The notes under the pieces are model-generated. The model was not told where the DNA came from and did no database searches. It saw only the letters and a program-made list of their open reading frames with translations. The position numbers and the translations under genes are program-made. From a virus, in IMG/VR virus record IMGVR_UViG_3300023063_000003, positions 1 to 64,000 of that record: a DNA stretch of 64,000 nucleotides. One strand, 5' to 3'. Of the stretch, positions 5,574 to 38,127 are shown in pieces. Position 1 is the stretch's first letter. Every line of letters begins with the position of its first letter.

Positions 5574-7163
5574 ATGACGCTCAAAATTAAAGTAAATGGG
5601 GTGTGGACCGACCCCATCGGACTATTCACCAAACAGAATGGTGTCTACGCGGCGGTGGTCGGCGCTTTCACGAAAGTGAATGGTGTGTACCAGTCAATTT
5701 TGAATACAGGCATAACCCTGCGCCAAATTTCTACACGATCGTGGTTCCCTGGTGTATCAGGTGGTCCTACCTCATCGCTCTTCCACAGTGAACACCCCGT
5801 GTTTGAGGACACAAACCAGATTCAACTTTTCTATGCGATGTTCTACTCTCGTTTAGAAACGCCGGCTGCCATTGGTCAGAAGATGGCCCTGCGCATCGAG
5901 TATCCGGTTGGAAGCGGAACTGTATTCCACATGACGTTCAATGGTGGCGCGACTACCTACACCACCACTGGTACTGAAGACATAAGCACTGATCTTATGA
6001 CGCTGCCATTCACTCTGAAGGCAGGCACGTTCTACCGTATCAAAGGTGCGTGGGCATGCACGGGTAGCCCGACAGGCTCTGTTCTGTTCTGTCAGGGCGG
6101 TTCGGCACCGCAATTCAACGCTGCGCATGATCTATTGCAGTATGGTGGGTCGCTGACTACAACCAATGTATTTACCAGTCTGGACGAGGCAAGCACCGCA
6201 TGGAATACCCGTGTAAATTCTGACCCATCATCAAACTATTGCATCCTGCCGTGTGCAATTGTTGGCCCTGGAACCATCCCAGCTATGTTCGTCGCAGGTG
6301 ATAGTCGAACAGCAGGCGGCAGCGCGGATCAGGCAAATGATGCTACCAACCTTAGCATGGGGGCGGGTGCCCGTATGATCGGTAACGTCTATCCATACAT
6401 CAATGCGGCGCAATCTTCTGACAGCGCTGTGTACTGGACCACGACGACATCTGCTACTCGGCGACTGGCATACCTTCGTTTCTGTACCGGTACGCTCAAT
6501 GCTATGGGCACCAATGACGCCCCTAACTATTCAGCTGGCAATGCGCAAAATCTTGTCGCACTCGATACGGCAATGAAAACGTTGATGGGCACGGCTATCC
6601 ACCCGTACATGACCATGACCTTACCGCCGCAGGACGTCGACTCGAACAGCCGCTACGACATACTTGCCAACATGTCGGCTAACGTTGGCTACTCAGCAAA
6701 AGCTGTTCTCAATGCCTACCGCCTCGCCCAAGTAGGTAATGGTGGAATGTACGACCACACGTTTGACCAAGCCCCACTAGCGCAAGACCCTAGCGACTCG
6801 ACAAAGTACCGTGTTGATCCGCGTGCGCGCCAATTGGCCGTAAGCACCACTGTCGGTTCAAGCACCGTCAACGTGACGAGCGGAACGCTCACGCCCGCTG
6901 ATGATTTCGCACAGGCGCGTGTGATGGGTGCAGGAACTTCCGGTGCCAACCTTGATGTCATTATTCGGTACGTAAGCGCAACGTCTTTCACGATGACTAA
7001 ACTGGCGCAGTATAATTTTGGGCCGGTCGTTGTCAACGCCGCGACTGCGGTAACAGGTGGGGTTTGCTGGTTCGGTACGCGATACAGCACGTCGGACGGC
7101 ATCCATGAGCAGCCACGTTTAGGTGTCTCGTACCAGACCATCGCGCTGTCGGCTCGCTTGTAA
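5574..7163 (+). CDS. Tailspike/tail fibre with SGNH (GDSL-like) esterase domain
   Basis: A 529-residue protein. The N-terminus has short repeats around VNGVW, KQNGVY and KVNGVY, probably the virion-attachment part. An SGNH hydrolase fold is indicated by GDSR at 242-245 (candidate nucleophile Ser244), GTND at 312-315 (block III) and DGIH at 508-511 (Asp508-His511) close to the C-terminus. Such domains on tailspikes usually remove acetyl groups from capsular or lipopolysaccharide sugars. It is the last rightward gene and is followed by a terminator. Receptor specificity cannot be read from sequence. Confidence in the hydrolase call is good, in the deacetylase substrate low. Confidence 0.75.
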   Translation: MTLKIKVNGVWTDPIGLFTKQNGVYAAVVGAFTKVNGVYQSILNTGITLRQISTRSWFPGVSGGPTSSLFHSEHPVFEDTNQIQLFYAMFYSRLETPAAIGQKMALRIEYPVGSGTVFHMTFNGGATTYTTTGTEDISTDLMTLPFTLKAGTFYRIKGAWACTGSPTGSVLFCQGGSAPQFNAAHDLLQYGGSLTTTNVFTSLDEASTAWNTRVNSDPSSNYCILPCAIVGPGTIPAMFVAGDSRTAGGSADQANDATNLSMGAGARMIGNVYPYINAAQSSDSAVYWTTTTSATRRLAYLRFCTGTLNAMGTNDAPNYSAGNAQNLVALDTAMKTLMGTAIHPYMTMTLPPQDVDSNSRYDILANMSANVGYSAKAVLNAYRLAQVGNGGMYDHTFDQAPLAQDPSDSTKYRVDPRARQLAVSTTVGSSTVNVTSGTLTPADDFAQARVMGAGTSGANLDVIIRYVSATSFTMTKLAQYNFGPVVVNAATAVTGGVCWFGTRYSTSDGIHEQPRLGVSYQTIALSARL

Positions 7164-7229
7164 AACATAGGTAAAAGGAGCCTGGACTGGAAGATCGGAG
7201 GGACAACGGAATGGCTCTACGCCCGGTGA

Positions 7230-7350
7230 ACCTTCCTTTCTTCTATTCTTCCATATTATTATTATTATTATTATTATTTAAAAATATAGAAGAAGTGAAT
7301 AAGTGCCAGAGAAATTTTCGGCGATGGAAGTGTGGAAGTATGGAATAGTG
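7230..7350. repeat. AT-microsatellite element A with inverted and direct repeats
   Basis: This non-coding stretch holds TTCTTCTAT (7238-7246), an (ATT)8 run at 7255-7278, the exact inverse ATAGAAGAA (7286-7294), then three spaced GGAAG-type repeats (GGAAG, GGAAG, GGAAT) near 7324-7344. A second copy with the same order but an (AT)13 core lies at 38004-38127. Together they bracket the leftward replication cluster. They may be a replication origin, a recombination boundary or a short RNA gene; no function is proven. The rest of 7164-7461 holds only the terminator at 7411-7450. Confidence 0.6.
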
Positions 7351-7410
7351 GTGCCATAGTTCGGGACTGTGCGTCCCATGCAAACAGAGTCATGGCCCTC
7401 ATATTGAAGA

Positions 7411-7450
7411 AGCCCAGATAGGTAAAACCTGTCCGGGCTTTTGTTTTATT
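7411..7450. terminator. Terminator between convergent transcripts
   Basis: A stem formed by AGCCCAGATAGGT and ACCTGTCCGGGCT with an AAA loop (one mismatch and one wobble) is followed on + by TTTTGTTTTATT. It would stop rightward transcription after the tailspike. On the - strand the flank is TTCTTCAAT, so it may also work from the left-going side. Confidence 0.75.
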
Positions 7451-7461
7451 GCGATGCGAGT

Positions 7462-8475
7462 TTAATCCAGCGGCACCAGGGCATGCACCACGGCGCGGAA
7501 GATGAAGTCCTTCGCCTGCTGTTCCGGTGGCAGCTGATTAAACGGCATGATGCACGGGTGCTGCTTGTTGACCGGATCTTTATAAGCGCCGTACGTCCAG
7601 CCGTCAGCGACCTTCTGGGCCGTCCAGCTTGCGTGCGACGCTTCAGGGCCGGCGTCCGGATTCGTGGTATGCAGCGTCACGCCCATCTTGGCCGAGGAAC
7701 GTTGCCATTCAGGCGCGTCTTCCCACGCTGGCTGGCTCAGATCGCCCAGGGCCTCGCAGTAGGCTTTATTGACCTCGTGGGCAACACGAGCCACGTCGTC
7801 CTGGCTAAACGCTGCCTTGGCCCCATTCTGGCCCTCCATGGCGAGGTTTTCCTTGAGTAAATAGCCTTCGAGCATCCAAACCTTGTCGATAGCCATTTTG
7901 CGGGCAATATGCCGGCCGATCTCGGCGTCGAAGTTCTCCGCGCTGGCGCAGGCCGACTCACCCGTGACCGTGAAGCCGTTCTTGAGCGTGAGGACGCAAA
8001 AGGTGAGCAGGCCAAGCGACGGGCTGAGCGCTTCGACACCAGTGTAGCTGGCCAGCGCACCCTGATCAGCGGTGAAGTAATTCTCGGCCACGACGGTGTC
8101 GTTGATATGGTCTAGCGTGACGCGCGGCGCTTGGCCCGGGGCATAGGCTTTGATCGACTGGGCAATCATGGCGTCGGCGATCTTGCCGGTGTCATTCATT
8201 TTCTTTTCGACCGCTTCGGTCTTCGCTGCTTGCCCCAACTGGTACGGCATCCACTCGGCGAACTCGGCGCCGGGTTTGGCATCGCCTTCCTGGACGAGCA
8301 GCACCGACGTGCGCGCATAGGCTACACCGTTCGCGTCAGAGACCATCAAGTTGACGCAGCGGTCGTTCCACACCTTAGCGACGATCGCCGCCAGTGGTTG
8401 ACCTGCTGCGGCCGCGCCGGGGAAGCCCCGGGCAGGATAGTAGTGGACGATGCGGCCCACGGTAGGTTTGATCAT
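7462..8475 (-). CDS. N4 gp49 / Sf6 gp66-like protein
   Basis: A 337-residue protein. The central part (about residues 115-215, with LDHINDTVVAENYFTA and GESACASAENFDAEIG) matches the phage gp49/gp66 family (PF13876), in which a conserved segment ends in ARKMAIDKVWMLEGYLL. The N-terminal 100 residues (GRIVHYYPARG...) form a separate small domain common on phage proteins of this kind. The family has no established biochemical role. It is the last gene of the leftward cluster, with its stop 12 bases from the convergent terminator. Confidence 0.7.
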   Translation of the reverse strand: MIKPTVGRIVHYYPARGFPGAAAAGQPLAAIVAKVWNDRCVNLMVSDANGVAYARTSVLLVQEGDAKPGAEFAEWMPYQLGQAAKTEAVEKKMNDTGKIADAMIAQSIKAYAPGQAPRVTLDHINDTVVAENYFTADQGALASYTGVEALSPSLGLLTFCVLTLKNGFTVTGESACASAENFDAEIGRHIARKMAIDKVWMLEGYLLKENLAMEGQNGAKAAFSQDDVARVAHEVNKAYCEALGDLSQPAWEDAPEWQRSSAKMGVTLHTTNPDAGPEASHASWTAQKVADGWTYGAYKDPVNKQHPCIMPFNQLPPEQQAKDFIFRAVVHALVPLD

Positions 8476-8556
8476 GACTTGCCTTTCGATGTGCCGCGAC
8501 TTCGCACGATGCCGGCGCGCGGCTGACCAGGAACAGCGGACCTTTTACAGCGCGTG

Positions 8557-9222
8557 CTAGGCAGCGAGCACCTTTCTGTACTCAGCCAACAGCGCTTTAT
8601 ACAGCTCGGCCATGAACGTATCACCCGGCTCGAACGTGTCCATCAAGCGGGTCAGCACGACGTTGTCTTCTTCGCCGAACCAAATCTTGATGTACGTGCC
8701 CTGTTTATAGCCATGATCCTGACGGAAAAAGTTCAGGACATTCTTGGCCACGTACTGACGGTACATATCGTCCCAGCTCATCGCCATGTCACCCATCAGG
8801 GTTTCAAACAGCAGCAGGCTAGTGCGGCGCGCGACGGCCAGACCGATCAACAGCTCGAGACGATCCGTGAAGGTCATCGCGGCCAGGACGTAAGCTCTGC
8901 CATCGAAGTAGATAGCGTCGCCCGCATAGATGCTCTCCACGGACGACGTGAGTTCACCAGTGGCCGCGACGACATCGCCATCATGGGCAATCAGCGTGTG
9001 GGACAGCATGAAGTGCCAGATGTCGACCAGCTCCATGCGCACCTGCGGCACGTCGGTCGACTGCTGCTTCCACCATTTCCAGCCATAGTGTTCCATGGCC
9101 TCGGCGCCTTCGACAATGGCCGCGCGCAGGAATGGGTAGCCGGCTTTGAGCCAGCCAGGATTGACCTTGGCGTTCATTTCCAACTGCAGCTTCAGCATGC
9201 GCAATGCTTGAGCGGTCTTCAT
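8557..9222 (-). CDS. dUTP diphosphatase, dimeric all-alpha type
   Basis: Residues 38-75 show the all-alpha dUTPase signature: E38 and E41 in VEGAEAMEHYGWKWWK, then E64 and D67 in MELVDIWHFMLSH, the metal-binding Glu/Asp set of the type-2 dUTPase family (PF08761). The enzyme turns dUTP into dUMP, keeping uracil out of DNA and feeding thymidylate synthesis, which fits the ThyX gene at 18540-19340. It is 221 residues, about the family length, and overlaps the next upstream gene by ATGA, suggesting coupled translation. Confidence 0.8.
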   Translation of the reverse strand: MKTAQALRMLKLQLEMNAKVNPGWLKAGYPFLRAAIVEGAEAMEHYGWKWWKQQSTDVPQVRMELVDIWHFMLSHTLIAHDGDVVAATGELTSSVESIYAGDAIYFDGRAYVLAAMTFTDRLELLIGLAVARRTSLLLFETLMGDMAMSWDDMYRQYVAKNVLNFFRQDHGYKQGTYIKIWFGEEDNVVLTRLMDTFEPGDTFMAELYKALLAEYRKVLAA

Positions 9223-23217: not shown

Positions 23218-24363
23218 TCAGATTTCAATCGGGATCGTGTGGCCGAACGGCGCCACTTCCTTGTTGATCGTCACCCACAACACCGGGAACTCAGGCGGAT
23301 GATCCGAGAACGGACCATACAGATCGGTAAGATAGATCATGCACATCGGCGGCTCGTTGAGCGCCTGGGCGGCTTCGATCGCCGGCCGGAAGTCCGTGCC
23401 GCCGCTGCAAAAGCGCGTCAACTGGAATGGATCATCTGGCCCAAATTCTTCGACCTTGCGCACGTCGGAGTCGAAGTGCATCACGGTGATCTTCTCAGGC
23501 CGCATGTCTTCCTTGATCGCTGCGATCTCGGCGCTGAACGCGGCCACGATGTTCATGTCGACCGAACCAGATTCATCGGACGCCACCACGATCTGACCGA
23601 CCGCTTCGCTGTACAGCCCCGGCAGATAGAAGCCAGCGGCCAGCATCTTGCGGTTCGCGCGCGACCACGAGTAATCGTTCTTCGCCGCTTTCGTGACGAA
23701 CTCGCGCAGCTCGGCTTTCCAATCCACCTTGTTCTCGGTGAGCTGTTCGACGAACTGCTCGATGCCGGCCGAGAGTTTGCCCACAGCCTTGGCAGCATTT
23801 GCTGCCTGCACCGCAGCGATCTTCCACTCGGCCGCCGACTGCTGCGCCATTGCTGGATCAGGTATGCCGGCCACGAGCTGGTCGAGCGGGCCTGGACCCT
23901 GGTTGCCCGAGCCAGGACCACCACTACTGCCCGGTGGGTTCGTCGGCAGCTTGGCATAAATCTGCTCAGCAGTCATGCCGCTGTAAGCTGGATCAAGCAG
24001 CCAGTCGTTCGGGACCGTAAAGCCGGACTTCTTCAAAATGTCATTGACGACATAGTCGGCTGCATGGTTCCATTTTTCTGGATTGAGTGTCAGGCCGCGG
24101 CTCGAAGGACCGCAGTGATCGAGCACGCAGTGCATGACCTCGTGCGCCAGCGCGCTCTTGGCCACATCATTCGACAACGTGTTCAAGAACTTAGCGCTGT
24201 AGCGCACGTCCTTGCCATTGACGACCAGCGTTGGCACGCTGTTGTCTTCGATCAGCTTGAGGCGCATCGCCAGTGTGCCGAAGAACGGATTATCGATGAG
24301 CAGGTTGGTGCGCGCCTTGGTAATTTTTTCAAGCGCTTTCAAGTCAATTGTTGGGCCGGCCAT
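23218..24363 (-). CDS. Zincin plus VWA domain protein (DUF2201-like)
   Basis: 381 residues. Residues 74-78 HEVMH (with His83) form a zincin motif; residues 145-160 are a Gly/Pro linker; a von Willebrand A domain starts near 255 with the MIDAS motif DESGS (D263, S265, S267), then SGGTDF and a later YLTD. This is the DUF2201 layout. VWA proteins often act with MoxR AAA+ ATPases as metal-dependent chaperones, and one is encoded at 28722-29792. GGAGAATAAAAATG is the start context. Confidence 0.8.
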   Translation of the reverse strand: MAGPTIDLKALEKITKARTNLLIDNPFFGTLAMRLKLIEDNSVPTLVVNGKDVRYSAKFLNTLSNDVAKSALAHEVMHCVLDHCGPSSRGLTLNPEKWNHAADYVVNDILKKSGFTVPNDWLLDPAYSGMTAEQIYAKLPTNPPGSSGGPGSGNQGPGPLDQLVAGIPDPAMAQQSAAEWKIAAVQAANAAKAVGKLSAGIEQFVEQLTENKVDWKAELREFVTKAAKNDYSWSRANRKMLAAGFYLPGLYSEAVGQIVVASDESGSVDMNIVAAFSAEIAAIKEDMRPEKITVMHFDSDVRKVEEFGPDDPFQLTRFCSGGTDFRPAIEAAQALNEPPMCMIYLTDLYGPFSDHPPEFPVLWVTINKEVAPFGHTIPIEI

Positions 24364-28721: not shown

Positions 28722-29792
28722 TCAGCTGAGCAAGCTGCTGTGCTTGATGGCGAACTGCATGTACTCTTTCGTTTCCGTGATCGCACGATTCGTCCTTTTC
28801 TGCGCGTCGCGCACATATACAACCTGCCACTCAGGGTCCATCCGGCCCACGTACTTCATGAAGCGTGGGAACACGTCCTTCGTCGACGCCGACGCTAGCG
28901 CGGCCGTGATGGCGAAGAACACCGCAGCCGTTTCTGGCAGCGGTGTGCCGTCCGGATCGAGCTTGATCTGGTCGATCGATGGCAGATCGCGGAACACCTG
29001 CAAGAACGCCTTGAACTCGCCGGCTGCGGCTTCGCCCACGGTGCCCTTCAACATCTCGAACTCGACCTCGGCCGACAGATCGCTGTTGATCAGTTCGCCG
29101 CAGAAGACCCAGCCGCGCGGGTTTGGCGATGAGCGTTGCGCTGGATCGAACGCGTGCAGCAGGTCCGGACGGAAGCGGATGAACGCCAGCAGTTCAGTCG
29201 GTACCGCATCGCCCTGACCCAGCGCCCATTCGCACCAGTCATCAGCATTCACGTCATAGTCCAGATGGATCAGCCGCAGCGCCAGCGCCGATGGCATCTT
29301 GATCGCATTGGCACGGTCTGTCTCACGGTTGCCGGCGGCCAGGATCGCCCAGCCATCAGGCAGTTTGTAGTCGCCGACCTGGCGCGTGAGCAGCAGCTGG
29401 TACGCCGCAGCCTGCACGGTGGACGGCGCCTGATTGAGTTCGTCCAGGAACAGGATGCCACGCGACGGGTTTGGTACGGTCTGCAGCTCCGTCACCGCAG
29501 CCGTCTTGCCCTTGGCCGGCTTGATCTCGACCTCTTGCTCGACGAACATCGGTGGGAAGAAGTTCGCTGGCAACCACTGCATATTCCCGGCCGCGACGTC
29601 AGGCACTGGGAAGCCTTTCACGTCGGTCGGGTCGAGCAGGTTCAGACGCACGTCAACGAGCTGCATGTCGCCGGCCGCGGCGACCTGGGCGATCAGATCG
29701 GACTTGCCGACGCCCGGTGGACCCCAGACGAATACAGGACGCTGCTTGGCGACAGCGACATTGAGAGCTTCACGGATTTGAATTGGACGCAT
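28722..29792 (-). CDS. MoxR-type AAA+ ATPase
   Basis: 356 residues from ATG 29792 (AAGGA upstream). Walker A GPPGVGKS at 24-31, Walker B ILFLDELNQ near 113-121, sensor AAGNRETD, and a C-terminal helical lid. This is the MoxR/CbbQ class, ATPases that remodel partner proteins together with VWA proteins. The VWA partner candidate is at 23218-24363 and a DUF3150-like gene is at 25777-26625. N4-like phages have a comparable MoxR/VWA pair, but its role is not well defined. Function here is therefore inferred. Confidence 0.82.
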   Translation of the reverse strand: MRPIQIREALNVAVAKQRPVFVWGPPGVGKSDLIAQVAAAGDMQLVDVRLNLLDPTDVKGFPVPDVAAGNMQWLPANFFPPMFVEQEVEIKPAKGKTAAVTELQTVPNPSRGILFLDELNQAPSTVQAAAYQLLLTRQVGDYKLPDGWAILAAGNRETDRANAIKMPSALALRLIHLDYDVNADDWCEWALGQGDAVPTELLAFIRFRPDLLHAFDPAQRSSPNPRGWVFCGELINSDLSAEVEFEMLKGTVGEAAAGEFKAFLQVFRDLPSIDQIKLDPDGTPLPETAAVFFAITAALASASTKDVFPRFMKYVGRMDPEWQVVYVRDAQKRTNRAITETKEYMQFAIKHSSLLS

Positions 29793-29805
29793 GATGAATT
29801 CCTTA

Positions 29806-30054
29806 TTAATTGAGACGTTGAGTGAATTGATTGATGAGATATTTTTCAAGCCGGTCGATGATTTTAAGTTGCTCATCGACCTGACTGGTATAAAGGTTGG
29901 TGCTGATTGTGTTGCTACTGCGCCGCTCGATCTCGGCCATTATTTTGAATGACCATTGACCGCTGAATCCTCGAATATGCTCAAGAAATTTTTCGTCGGT
30001 CATGTCCTTAAATTCAGAACGCCACGATGTCCATGGATTTTTAAGGATGTCCAT
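29806..30054 (-). CDS. Tiny MTD-family protein 1, 82 aa
   Basis: Unknown. Clear paralog of the next upstream gene: DMTDEKFLEHIRGFSGQWS, then IMAEIERR, a later LIN helix and end FTQRLN. The pair probably arose by tandem duplication. ATGGACATC starts inside the last codons of the upstream gene, with CGGAGG as ribosome-binding site. Confidence 0.55.
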   Translation of the reverse strand: MDILKNPWTSWRSEFKDMTDEKFLEHIRGFSGQWSFKIMAEIERRSSNTISTNLYTSQVDEQLKIIDRLEKYLINQFTQRLN

Positions 30055-34642: not shown

Positions 34643-37600
34643 CTATTTTGTCGTTTTACCTCCCACTGCCTTCAGTTTAACTGGCGTGACAGGCAGAGGC
34701 GAGATCAGTGTGCTGAACTCGGTGATGCGTTTGGGTTCGGACCACGTCGTCGTGATGCCCTGCAGCGCGCGGCTGTCGATCCAGACCTTCGTCATGTGGA
34801 TGCGGTGATGCTTCAACATCGACGTGAACTTGTTGGCCGTCTCCGGCACGTTGCCGACCGTGTAGTCGAACATGACATGCAGCTCGTCGCGCGAGATGTG
34901 ACATGCGCCGGTCTGCGGGTTCGTACGAGCCAGGATCGTGAGTAGCACCTCTTTATAGTCTTCGACCTTGTTGGCACGCAGCGCATTGCGCTTGTACGTG
35001 TCGTCGCTGGGGAGCTGGTCGATGAAGAATTCCATGTTGCCGTTGATGACATTGTTCACAGCGACATCGACTGAGGTCTCACTGATGCTGATCATCGTCT
35101 GCCGGTCCTGTGTATCAATGACCTGTCCGGACAGTGCCTTGTCAGCTTTGTAGGCCATCAGGTAATCATGGAACGCTTGCAGCTCCGTCTCGATCTGGTC
35201 GAGATCAGCTTCCGAGAGCTGCAGCTTATTGGGCTGGAACCGGGCTACGTTGTGGCGACGATCGTTGAGCGTCAACACCACCGGCTCGGGTTTGTTCGAG
35301 GCGAAGATCAGGTTGGTGCGATTGTCATATTCACCGGACCCGGTCCACATGGCACGGATCGCGATCGTCGGCTCCGTGATCCAATTGCGCAGCCGGGCAC
35401 CGACGCCTTTCTCGTTGTTGAGCGCCTTCGCTTCGATCTCGTCGATGAAGGTGACGAATTTGTTGAGCAGGAAGTCGTTGTACTTTTCATTGAGGTCTTC
35501 CATCGGCCGCACGGACGTCTGGTTCAGACCGAGCAGCGGACGGATGATCTTGTGCATCATCGCGCCCTTGCCCGTGTTATGTACAGCGAAGCCATTTGCG
35601 ATGTAGTTCTGGTATGGCGCTTTCATCGTCAGGTCGTACGTCATTTCAATTCCATCAGCAATGATGCTAGCGACGGTCTCGATCTTGGTGCTGATCATAC
35701 CCAGTCCAACTGACTTGGCATGGTGCTGATCGTGATTGAGCTTATCGATTACCTTGAGATTACTGAGGGCGTCGTTGAGCGGGTTCTCATCGGCATGATG
35801 CACGATCTCGTCGACTGATAAGTACAACAGCTGTGCAGCGCGGGCGGCATCGTTACGGATGATGCTGATAAATTCGTCGAGCGACATATTGTTCATGTCA
35901 GCTTCGACAACGAGTCGCGCAGTGTGCATGCGCTTATAGTCCTTGCCGCCGACTATCTGCTTCCATGCGTAGGGATGGTGCGGGATTGAATACGTCGTGT
36001 GCCGAGGCAAACGGCCCCGTGGCTCAGCTATATGATCATTGTGATCGCCTTCTACAACGACCTCGTCACCAGGTTGCAGATCATGTAGGTTCGTGAACGA
36101 TCCATCAGGGCGCATGAATGGGTGCAGCATAGATACCCTGATACTACGACCTGTGTTGGTCGTGAGAGCGTAGAGTTGCTTTTCACCGGCCTCGACAATG
36201 CGATAGATTTCATGGAAGCCGATTGTCATGCCATCTTTTACCGACTTGGTGCGTGTGACGATACCGGGTTGCCATGTTTTGCCTTTGCCTGTTCCGAGCT
36301 TGTAGGTACCTTGGGTTTTGGCAAACGCATCCTTGACAGTAAGTGGCCGGCCACCTCTACGTGTACCACGATTGAAATCGAGCACCGTATCACCAGCCAA
36401 GCAGCCTTCGACGCCATGCAATATCCAGGCCGTCTTGGTGCGCACTTTGTACTGAAAGATGCAAGCCAACCAATTAATGAAATGGTCGAAGATTTCTGCA
36501 TCATCGTTAAGCGCGTGAGAAATCGTACGCGTAATCATCGGTGGGATGTGCATGACTTTCTTCGCCTTGGCTTTGCCGTAGATTGTCGGCTCGTATGTGT
36601 TGATGGTCTTGGTCGTCTGGTCGACGCGGATACGTGACTGCGGGTCGAAGATCATGCTCCACTCCGGGATGAAGTCACCGAGAGGGATGCCGTACTGCTT
36701 GGCGAAGTGGCGAATCTGCGTTTCGTTCTTGGCCGGGACCAGGTCCAGCAGGTCCAGCCCTGGGTCATACGTGCCACGGTAGTAGACGCTGGTCTTGCGA
36801 TCCAAGAACGTCAGGTACATCAGTCCGGACGAACTGATCTTGACCGACTGCTGCGTGAGTTCTTCCCAATATTCTGGCAACAGTTCCTTGGTGACGTAGG
36901 TCGGCTCGCCTTTGAAATTGTAGATGAAGTCCGGATTGTTCTCGGGGTGGTAGTACGCCCACGAGTCGCCGCCGTTGAGATTGAAGTAGACATAACCGCG
37001 GTCGGTCTTCATTTCGCTGATCGTGGCGCTGTCCGGTTTGGTCAATACCTGATTGGCGCCGACCATCTTATATACATACTTGCGGCTTGGCAGGCCGGTG
37101 GCTTTGCGCAGGTCGTCGATACGGGCATGGGTCAAAGCGCGATTGGCCTCAGTGCTTGCGATGGTGCTCGGGATGGTGAGCGTTGCATTCTTCCCGGCCA
37201 CGAACGTGATGCGGGACTTGTTGTTCATCGGGTCTTTGATGCCGCCCTTTAATACCGGCGAAGCGATGTAGATCAGTTTGTCATTCTGGCAGGCGGTGAT
37301 ATCCAGTGGCCAGGACAACGCGTTACCTGTCTTTGTCAGGCTCATGGCATTGCGCAGCGTGGCGACCTGGTGGTTGATACCGATCAGCCATTGCTTGAGA
37401 AGTGGTGCAGCCATTGGCTTGGACAGCTGCATGAAGACATGGGCACGCAGGTCTTTGTTCTCGATGCCGTAGGACGCCGAGTATTGGATCACGTACGAGA
37501 TGTCGTCGAGGCCGAGTTCCTTGAGGAAGGCAGACACTGTGGTCAGGTTCGGGATGCCATCGAGATCGAGCACGATCCAGTCAGTGGCTGCGTTGCTGTC

Positions 37601-37840
37601 CGTGCTGCCCTTGCGTGACTCGTTCATGAGTGGCTTGGCGATTGAACCCTTGAGCATGCAGTGACCGAGCGCGGCGTGTTTGCGTATGAGTTGTTCGAGA
37701 CGCTTGATATCGGTGCAGGGTTCCTCGATCGAGGTGAACTCGTATGCGTTCGGGTAGGGATACTTTTCAAGGGTGCCATCTTTCTGCTTGACGTACGTTT
37801 TTGTGAGCGAAATCGATGCCTTGAGAAAGATGAGTTTCAT
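34643..37840 (-). CDS. Primase-polymerase/SF3 helicase containing an intein
   Basis: 1065 codons, giving a 789-residue mature protein after removal of the intein at residues 480-755. N-terminal part: DWIVLDLDG (hDhD) and LRAHVFMQLSKP fit an archaeo-eukaryotic primase-polymerase domain. C-terminal part: an SF3/D5-type helicase with Walker A GVEG-TGKG (split by the intein), Walker B FIDEIEAK and sensor NLIFASNKPEPVV. It would prime and unwind phage DNA. It follows the AT-rich element at 38004-38127 and lies first in its transcript block. The N-terminal primase call is moderate, the helicase call good. Confidence 0.85.
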   Translation of the reverse strand: MKLIFLKASISLTKTYVKQKDGTLEKYPYPNAYEFTSIEEPCTDIKRLEQLIRKHAALGHCMLKGSIAKPLMNESRKGSTDSNAATDWIVLDLDGIPNLTTVSAFLKELGLDDISYVIQYSASYGIENKDLRAHVFMQLSKPMAAPLLKQWLIGINHQVATLRNAMSLTKTGNALSWPLDITACQNDKLIYIASPVLKGGIKDPMNNKSRITFVAGKNATLTIPSTIASTEANRALTHARIDDLRKATGLPSRKYVYKMVGANQVLTKPDSATISEMKTDRGYVYFNLNGGDSWAYYHPENNPDFIYNFKGEPTYVTKELLPEYWEELTQQSVKISSSGLMYLTFLDRKTSVYYRGTYDPGLDLLDLVPAKNETQIRHFAKQYGIPLGDFIPEWSMIFDPQSRIRVDQTTKTINTYEPTIYGKAKAKKVMHIPPMITRTISHALNDDAEIFDHFINWLACIFQYKVRTKTAWILHGVEGCLAGDTVLDFNRGTRRGGRPLTVKDAFAKTQGTYKLGTGKGKTWQPGIVTRTKSVKDGMTIGFHEIYRIVEAGEKQLYALTTNTGRSIRVSMLHPFMRPDGSFTNLHDLQPGDEVVVEGDHNDHIAEPRGRLPRHTTYSIPHHPYAWKQIVGGKDYKRMHTARLVVEADMNNMSLDEFISIIRNDAARAAQLLYLSVDEIVHHADENPLNDALSNLKVIDKLNHDQHHAKSVGLGMISTKIETVASIIADGIEMTYDLTMKAPYQNYIANGFAVHNTGKGAMMHKIIRPLLGLNQTSVRPMEDLNEKYNDFLLNKFVTFIDEIEAKALNNEKGVGARLRNWITEPTIAIRAMWTGSGEYDNRTNLIFASNKPEPVVLTLNDRRHNVARFQPNKLQLSEADLDQIETELQAFHDYLMAYKADKALSGQVIDTQDRQTMISISETSVDVAVNNVINGNMEFFIDQLPSDDTYKRNALRANKVEDYKEVLLTILARTNPQTGACHISRDELHVMFDYTVGNVPETANKFTSMLKHHRIHMTKVWIDSRALQGITTTWSEPKRITEFSTLISPLPVTPVKLKAVGGKTTK
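35576..36403 (-). other. Intein with HNH endonuclease motif in the helicase P-loop
   Basis: 276 residues in frame. Block A begins CLAGDTVLDF (Cys1), block B has SMLHPF (His94), block F/G ends in GFAVHN with the next extein residue Thr. All splicing residues appear to be intact. Residues 200-228 carry an HNH motif (VHHADENPLNDALSNL, then NHDQHH), typical of homing endonucleases. The insertion splits Walker A between GVEG and TGKG, a site often used by inteins. The host helicase needs splicing to be active. Confidence 0.9.

Positions 37841-38003: not shown

Positions 38004-38127
<124 letters not shown>

Follow-up and report, generated by a model that had tools for sequence, protein, structure and literature searches.

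It is highly probable that the replicative prim-pol/SF3 helicase of the phage studied here carries a mobile class 1 intein with a predicted HNH homing endonuclease. The window (the whole 64,000-nucleotide stretch analysed) is part of a 66,748-base IMG/VR virus record, and the replicase intein is the sole intein found in that record. The source is a tailed phage and a distant relative of Pseudomonas phage KPP25; the replicase gene of the window has 41% identity to its KPP25 counterpart, and the same record encodes a P22-like portal. The replicase would be translated as a 1065-aa precursor (Table 1), from which the HINT domain would splice through Cys1, Asn276 and the +1 Thr, releasing the 276-aa intein and ligating GVEG to TGKG, so that Walker A is restored. 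The HNH domain would cut the P-loop codons of intein-free alleles carried by co-infecting phages, after which recombination would copy the intein into the empty allele. As such, the element is an example of a well-known kind, and the most interesting part is its family's occupancy of the P-loop across protein families. The window also offers a clean natural case in which the ATP site of a phage replicase would form only once splicing has occurred, and many sister alleles without the intein are available to compare it with.

Table 1. The intein-containing replicase gene with its parts (positions in the window), and the Walker A sites split by inteins of the same family in other loci (slash, insertion point).
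Feature	Positions	Strand	Details
Precursor gene, AEP prim-pol + SF3 helicase with in-frame intein	34643..37840	-	1065 aa
N-extein	36404..37840	-	479 aa; prim-pol domain (D92/D94, H134, D180), linker, first half of Walker A (GVEG)
Intein, Cys1 to Asn276	35576..36403	-	276 aa; precursor aa 480-755
HINT N-terminal splicing part	36041..36403	-	intein residues 1-121; Cys1, block B His94
HNH-type endonuclease region	35708..36040	-	intein residues ~122-232; boundaries approximate, mostly low pLDDT
HNH-region landmarks	within 35708..36040	-	RLVVEADMNN block, then H202-H203...N210...N215...H224...H228
HINT C-terminal splicing part	35576..35707	-	intein residues ~233-276; block F TYD, block G VHN
C-extein	34646..35575	-	310 aa; +1 Thr, TGKG (second half of Walker A), helicase body, tail; DUF5906
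C-extein landmarks	within 34646..35575	-	Walker B DE, aa 800-801; conserved RR, aa 861-862
L004, UvsX/RecA-like			GSWG/SAKT
L013, UvsX/RecA-like			GLSG/TGKS
L095, Sak4/AAA_24			GDTG/SGKT
L096, RecA-like by reading of the sequence alone			GDK/SSGKS

Two further features of the window were observed. Upstream of the replicase gene, an intergenic segment contains a pure (AT)13 run (38019-38044). Positions 23218-24363 and 28722-29876 encode a DUF2201 metallopeptidase-like/VWA protein and a MoxR-like AAA ATPase of one gene cluster, possibly a phage MoxR-VWA pair.

An earlier note on this DNA had described an intein splitting the P-loop of the helicase, and its boundaries proved right to the base, with the Cys1 codon at 36403-36401 and the last Asn codon at 35578-35576; its reading of the insert is likewise supported. 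All of the residues it named are present (the CLAGDTVLDF start, His94 in SMLHPF, the GFAVHN end and the +1 Thr), the insert lies between GVEG and TGKG, and joining the flanks in silico gives GVEGTGKG. The block A nucleophile Cys1 is invariant across six relatives, and the block B His94 is also invariant. The Thr of the block B TxxH motif is replaced by Ser in the window (SMLH); among relatives this residue is Thr in L001, L014 and L004 and Ser in L013 and L095. The intein ends in VHN followed by Thr, and the +1 residue is Thr or Ser among relatives. The Pfam Intein_splicing model matched the isolated insert above its gathering score (E = 7.5e-10), the NCBIfam model of the intein C-terminal splicing region scored above its cut-off, and a profile built from three family members matched the solved DnaB, CDC21 and VMA inteins. 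An AlphaFold2 model built from five sequences (mean pLDDT 65, with the splicing-core blocks mostly at ~60-95) adopts a HINT fold, for which the top Foldseek matches are all inteins, DnaB first. These profile and fold matches, to Pfam, NCBIfam and solved inteins, together with the many homologs that lack exactly this block, put the observation far beyond chance.

The description of the host protein as a prim-pol/SF3 helicase is also supported by the invariant D92, D94, H134 and D180, the Walker A and B motifs, and the homology of the C-terminal region to NrS-1 polymerase. D92-x-D94, H134 and D180 are invariant in 44 homologs, and by this residue pattern the N-extein fits an archaeo-eukaryotic prim-pol (AEP) domain; sequence and fold comparisons gave no separate match of this domain to a solved prim-pol. 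The C-terminal half matches the C-terminal region of NrS-1 polymerase (PDB 6k9c/6k9e) with E = 2e-56 by sequence and E = 3e-20 by Foldseek, and the SF3 residues GK, DE and RR are invariant among homologs. NrS-1 polymerase is a hexameric SF3 helicase with the Walker A motif 447-GKQGTGKG-454, in which Gly450, Lys453 and Gly454 contact phosphate (PMC7102993). The intein is inserted between the equivalents of Gly450 and Thr451. Because the insert parts a phosphate-binding Gly from the catalytic Lys, we strongly infer that helicase activity, and hence replication, depends on splicing.

Helicase homologs lacking the insert, which the earlier note had proposed to look for, turned out to be numerous. 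We searched 80 related IMG/VR loci (L014-L093, where L015 is the same contig as L001), and 77 of them have an uninterrupted P-loop (~72 distinct sequences, KPP25 included); only two, L014 and L015, contain the intein, and the remaining one, L061, ends before the insertion site. Exactly the 276 residues are absent from KPP25, phiA008 and L002/L003, and the closest relatives of the window replicase (L016, L017, L018 and L019; 66-71% in the N-extein) are all empty. The intein was not found in 84,980 cellular genomes queried with short peptide patterns, a search of limited sensitivity, and a plasmid search gave no match.

This patchiness might reflect vertical descent from one old gain followed by many losses, with an intein that still splices and an HNH endonuclease that is dead. 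We consider this unlikely, although the Pfam HNH_3 match of the window copy is sub-threshold (E = 0.037) and AlphaFold2 modelled the region (residues ~122-232) mostly at low confidence, much of it with pLDDT <50. The HNH core that the earlier note had read is nevertheless present, with matches to PHROG HNH families at 5e-6, and H202, H203, D205, N210, N215, H224 and H228 are invariant in six relatives, in which the region has no stops or frameshifts. Among carriers, the HNH region and the HINT regions are conserved to the same degree. Of the residues that are identical, roughly half or more are encoded by different codons; this codon measure replaced dN/dS, for which synonymous changes were too numerous. 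Equal conservation despite so many codon changes suggests that the HNH region is under purifying selection, as it appears to be from these comparisons. A tree of 71 extein sequences places the three carriers apart, each within a different supported clade of empty alleles; forcing them into one clade is rejected (AU p 1.8e-57), and a single ancestral gain would require 16 losses. Together, the patchy distribution and the conserved HNH region lend indirect support to spread of the intein by homing. Between carriers, inteins are 59-62% identical, compared with 49-53% for exteins, which also favours spread by homing; stronger constraint, not later transfer, could be a partial cause of this closer similarity. 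Intein G+C is slightly lower than that of each carrier, yet tracks it. This picture is the one expected of a homing intein.

Still less probable, in our view, is co-option of the intein as a conditional switch that delays activation of the replicase until a cue triggers splicing. A replication enzyme interrupted in its catalytic P-loop would suit such a role, and there are documented precedents for conditional splicing in the inteins of mycobacterial DnaB and Pyrococcus RadA (PMC6195587, PMC7360933, PMC5790916). However, the nearest relatives manage without the intein. A redox-controlled version of the switch was not supported, since no conserved redox trap is visible: Cys1 is the sole cysteine of the intein, and the nearby N-extein Cys (in NWLAC) is shared neither by the carrier L014 nor by aligned empty alleles. 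A third reading, in which the insert would be a normal part of the helicase or a BIL-like HINT domain that does not splice, is extremely improbable and found no positive support: exactly this block is missing at the exact site from KPP25 and the 77 homologous loci, its fold is HINT, its His-Asn and the +1 Thr are intact, and it interrupts the catalytic Walker A, a conserved motif, unlike BILs, which are found in non-conserved regions (PMC2814812).

A mobile, homing intein thus remains the preferred reading, and its relatives bear on how it may choose its targets. Alignment-based searches recovered full-length family members in four non-replicase hosts, all of them P-loop ATPases split in Walker A (Table 1). 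In three of the four (L004, L013 and L095) the gap is that of the replicase, GxxG/xxK, and the inteins are 36-41% identical to that of the window; L096 is split one codon upstream. The preference of inteins for P-loops is generally known (PMC5050341, PMC5874633). Our search, which covered part of the literature, found no paper on this intein family. In the same-gap cases, the 24-bp insertion sites have 10-15 of 24 bases in common with the window site, and the bases shared amount to little beyond the Gly and Lys codons. This low similarity therefore leaves three alternatives: the endonuclease may tolerate wobble and variable codons, it may have been retargeted in each host, or only those P-loop insertions that splice well may have survived. 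Relatives in the same loop of unrelated phage ATPases suggest that the intein may spread by loop recognition, and we tentatively propose, as a possibility short of even odds, that the HNH enzyme recognises Walker A codons loosely and moves among non-orthologous phage P-loop ATPases (SF3 replicase, UvsX/RecA-like, Sak4), its target being the motif and not the gene. The presence of one family in the Walker A of unrelated phage ATPases makes motif-codon versus single-gene targeting by homing endonucleases testable.

Other inteins were met alongside this family. L013 (IMGVR_UViG_3300035698_024294; positions 6398-8842) also contains a different intein, which has a LAGLIDADG endonuclease (E = 7e-34) and splits a DEAD/ResIII-type phage helicase at its DE/CH motif; this helicase is encoded two genes downstream of the UvsX-like gene with the HNH intein, such that neighbouring ATPase genes carry two different inteins. 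The unannotated 462-kb uncultured phage LR756500.1 encodes a 333-aa HNH intein in an apparent ThyX thymidylate synthase (L009:3224-4222), with the junctions FAQE/C..N/STRY. Only its C-terminal part is common with the window intein, and this ThyX intein was not counted as a family member, its match spanning only ~77 residues.

Among known systems, the closest parallel by site is provided by the mycobacteriophage TerL1-a and TerL1-b inteins (PMC5050341), which are likewise phage-borne, interrupt Walker A in an essential ATPase and have intein-free relatives. Splicing and endonuclease activity have been demonstrated for TerL1-b, and P-loop insertion sites at adjacent residues are known in mycobacteriophage TerL (PMC5050341). 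The TerL1-a site falls between the Walker A Lys and Thr, whereas the window intein falls between GxxG and TGK; the host protein also differs, being a prim-pol/SF3 helicase in the window. The yeast VMA intein was dropped as a P-loop parallel, since according to the literature it occupies VMA-a, whereas the P-loop site, VMA-b, is archaeal. By sequence and fold, the closest solved HINT structures are the Ssp and Npu DnaB inteins (PDB 1mi8, 4o1r), which also reside in a replication helicase, but one of a different superfamily. They are only ~13-15% identical to the window intein, and the solved constructs comprise 141-158 residues as against 276 aa with the HNH region. The inteins of UvsX/RecA-like and Sak4 proteins (L004, L013, L095 and L096) belong to the same family over their full length, while their host proteins differ. 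For the host protein of the window, the NrS-1 prim-pol/helicase (PDB 6k9c, 6k9e, 6lrb) has a homologous C-terminal SF3 helicase with an identical TGKG half; its Walker A is uninterrupted, whereas that of the window replicase is split by the intein.
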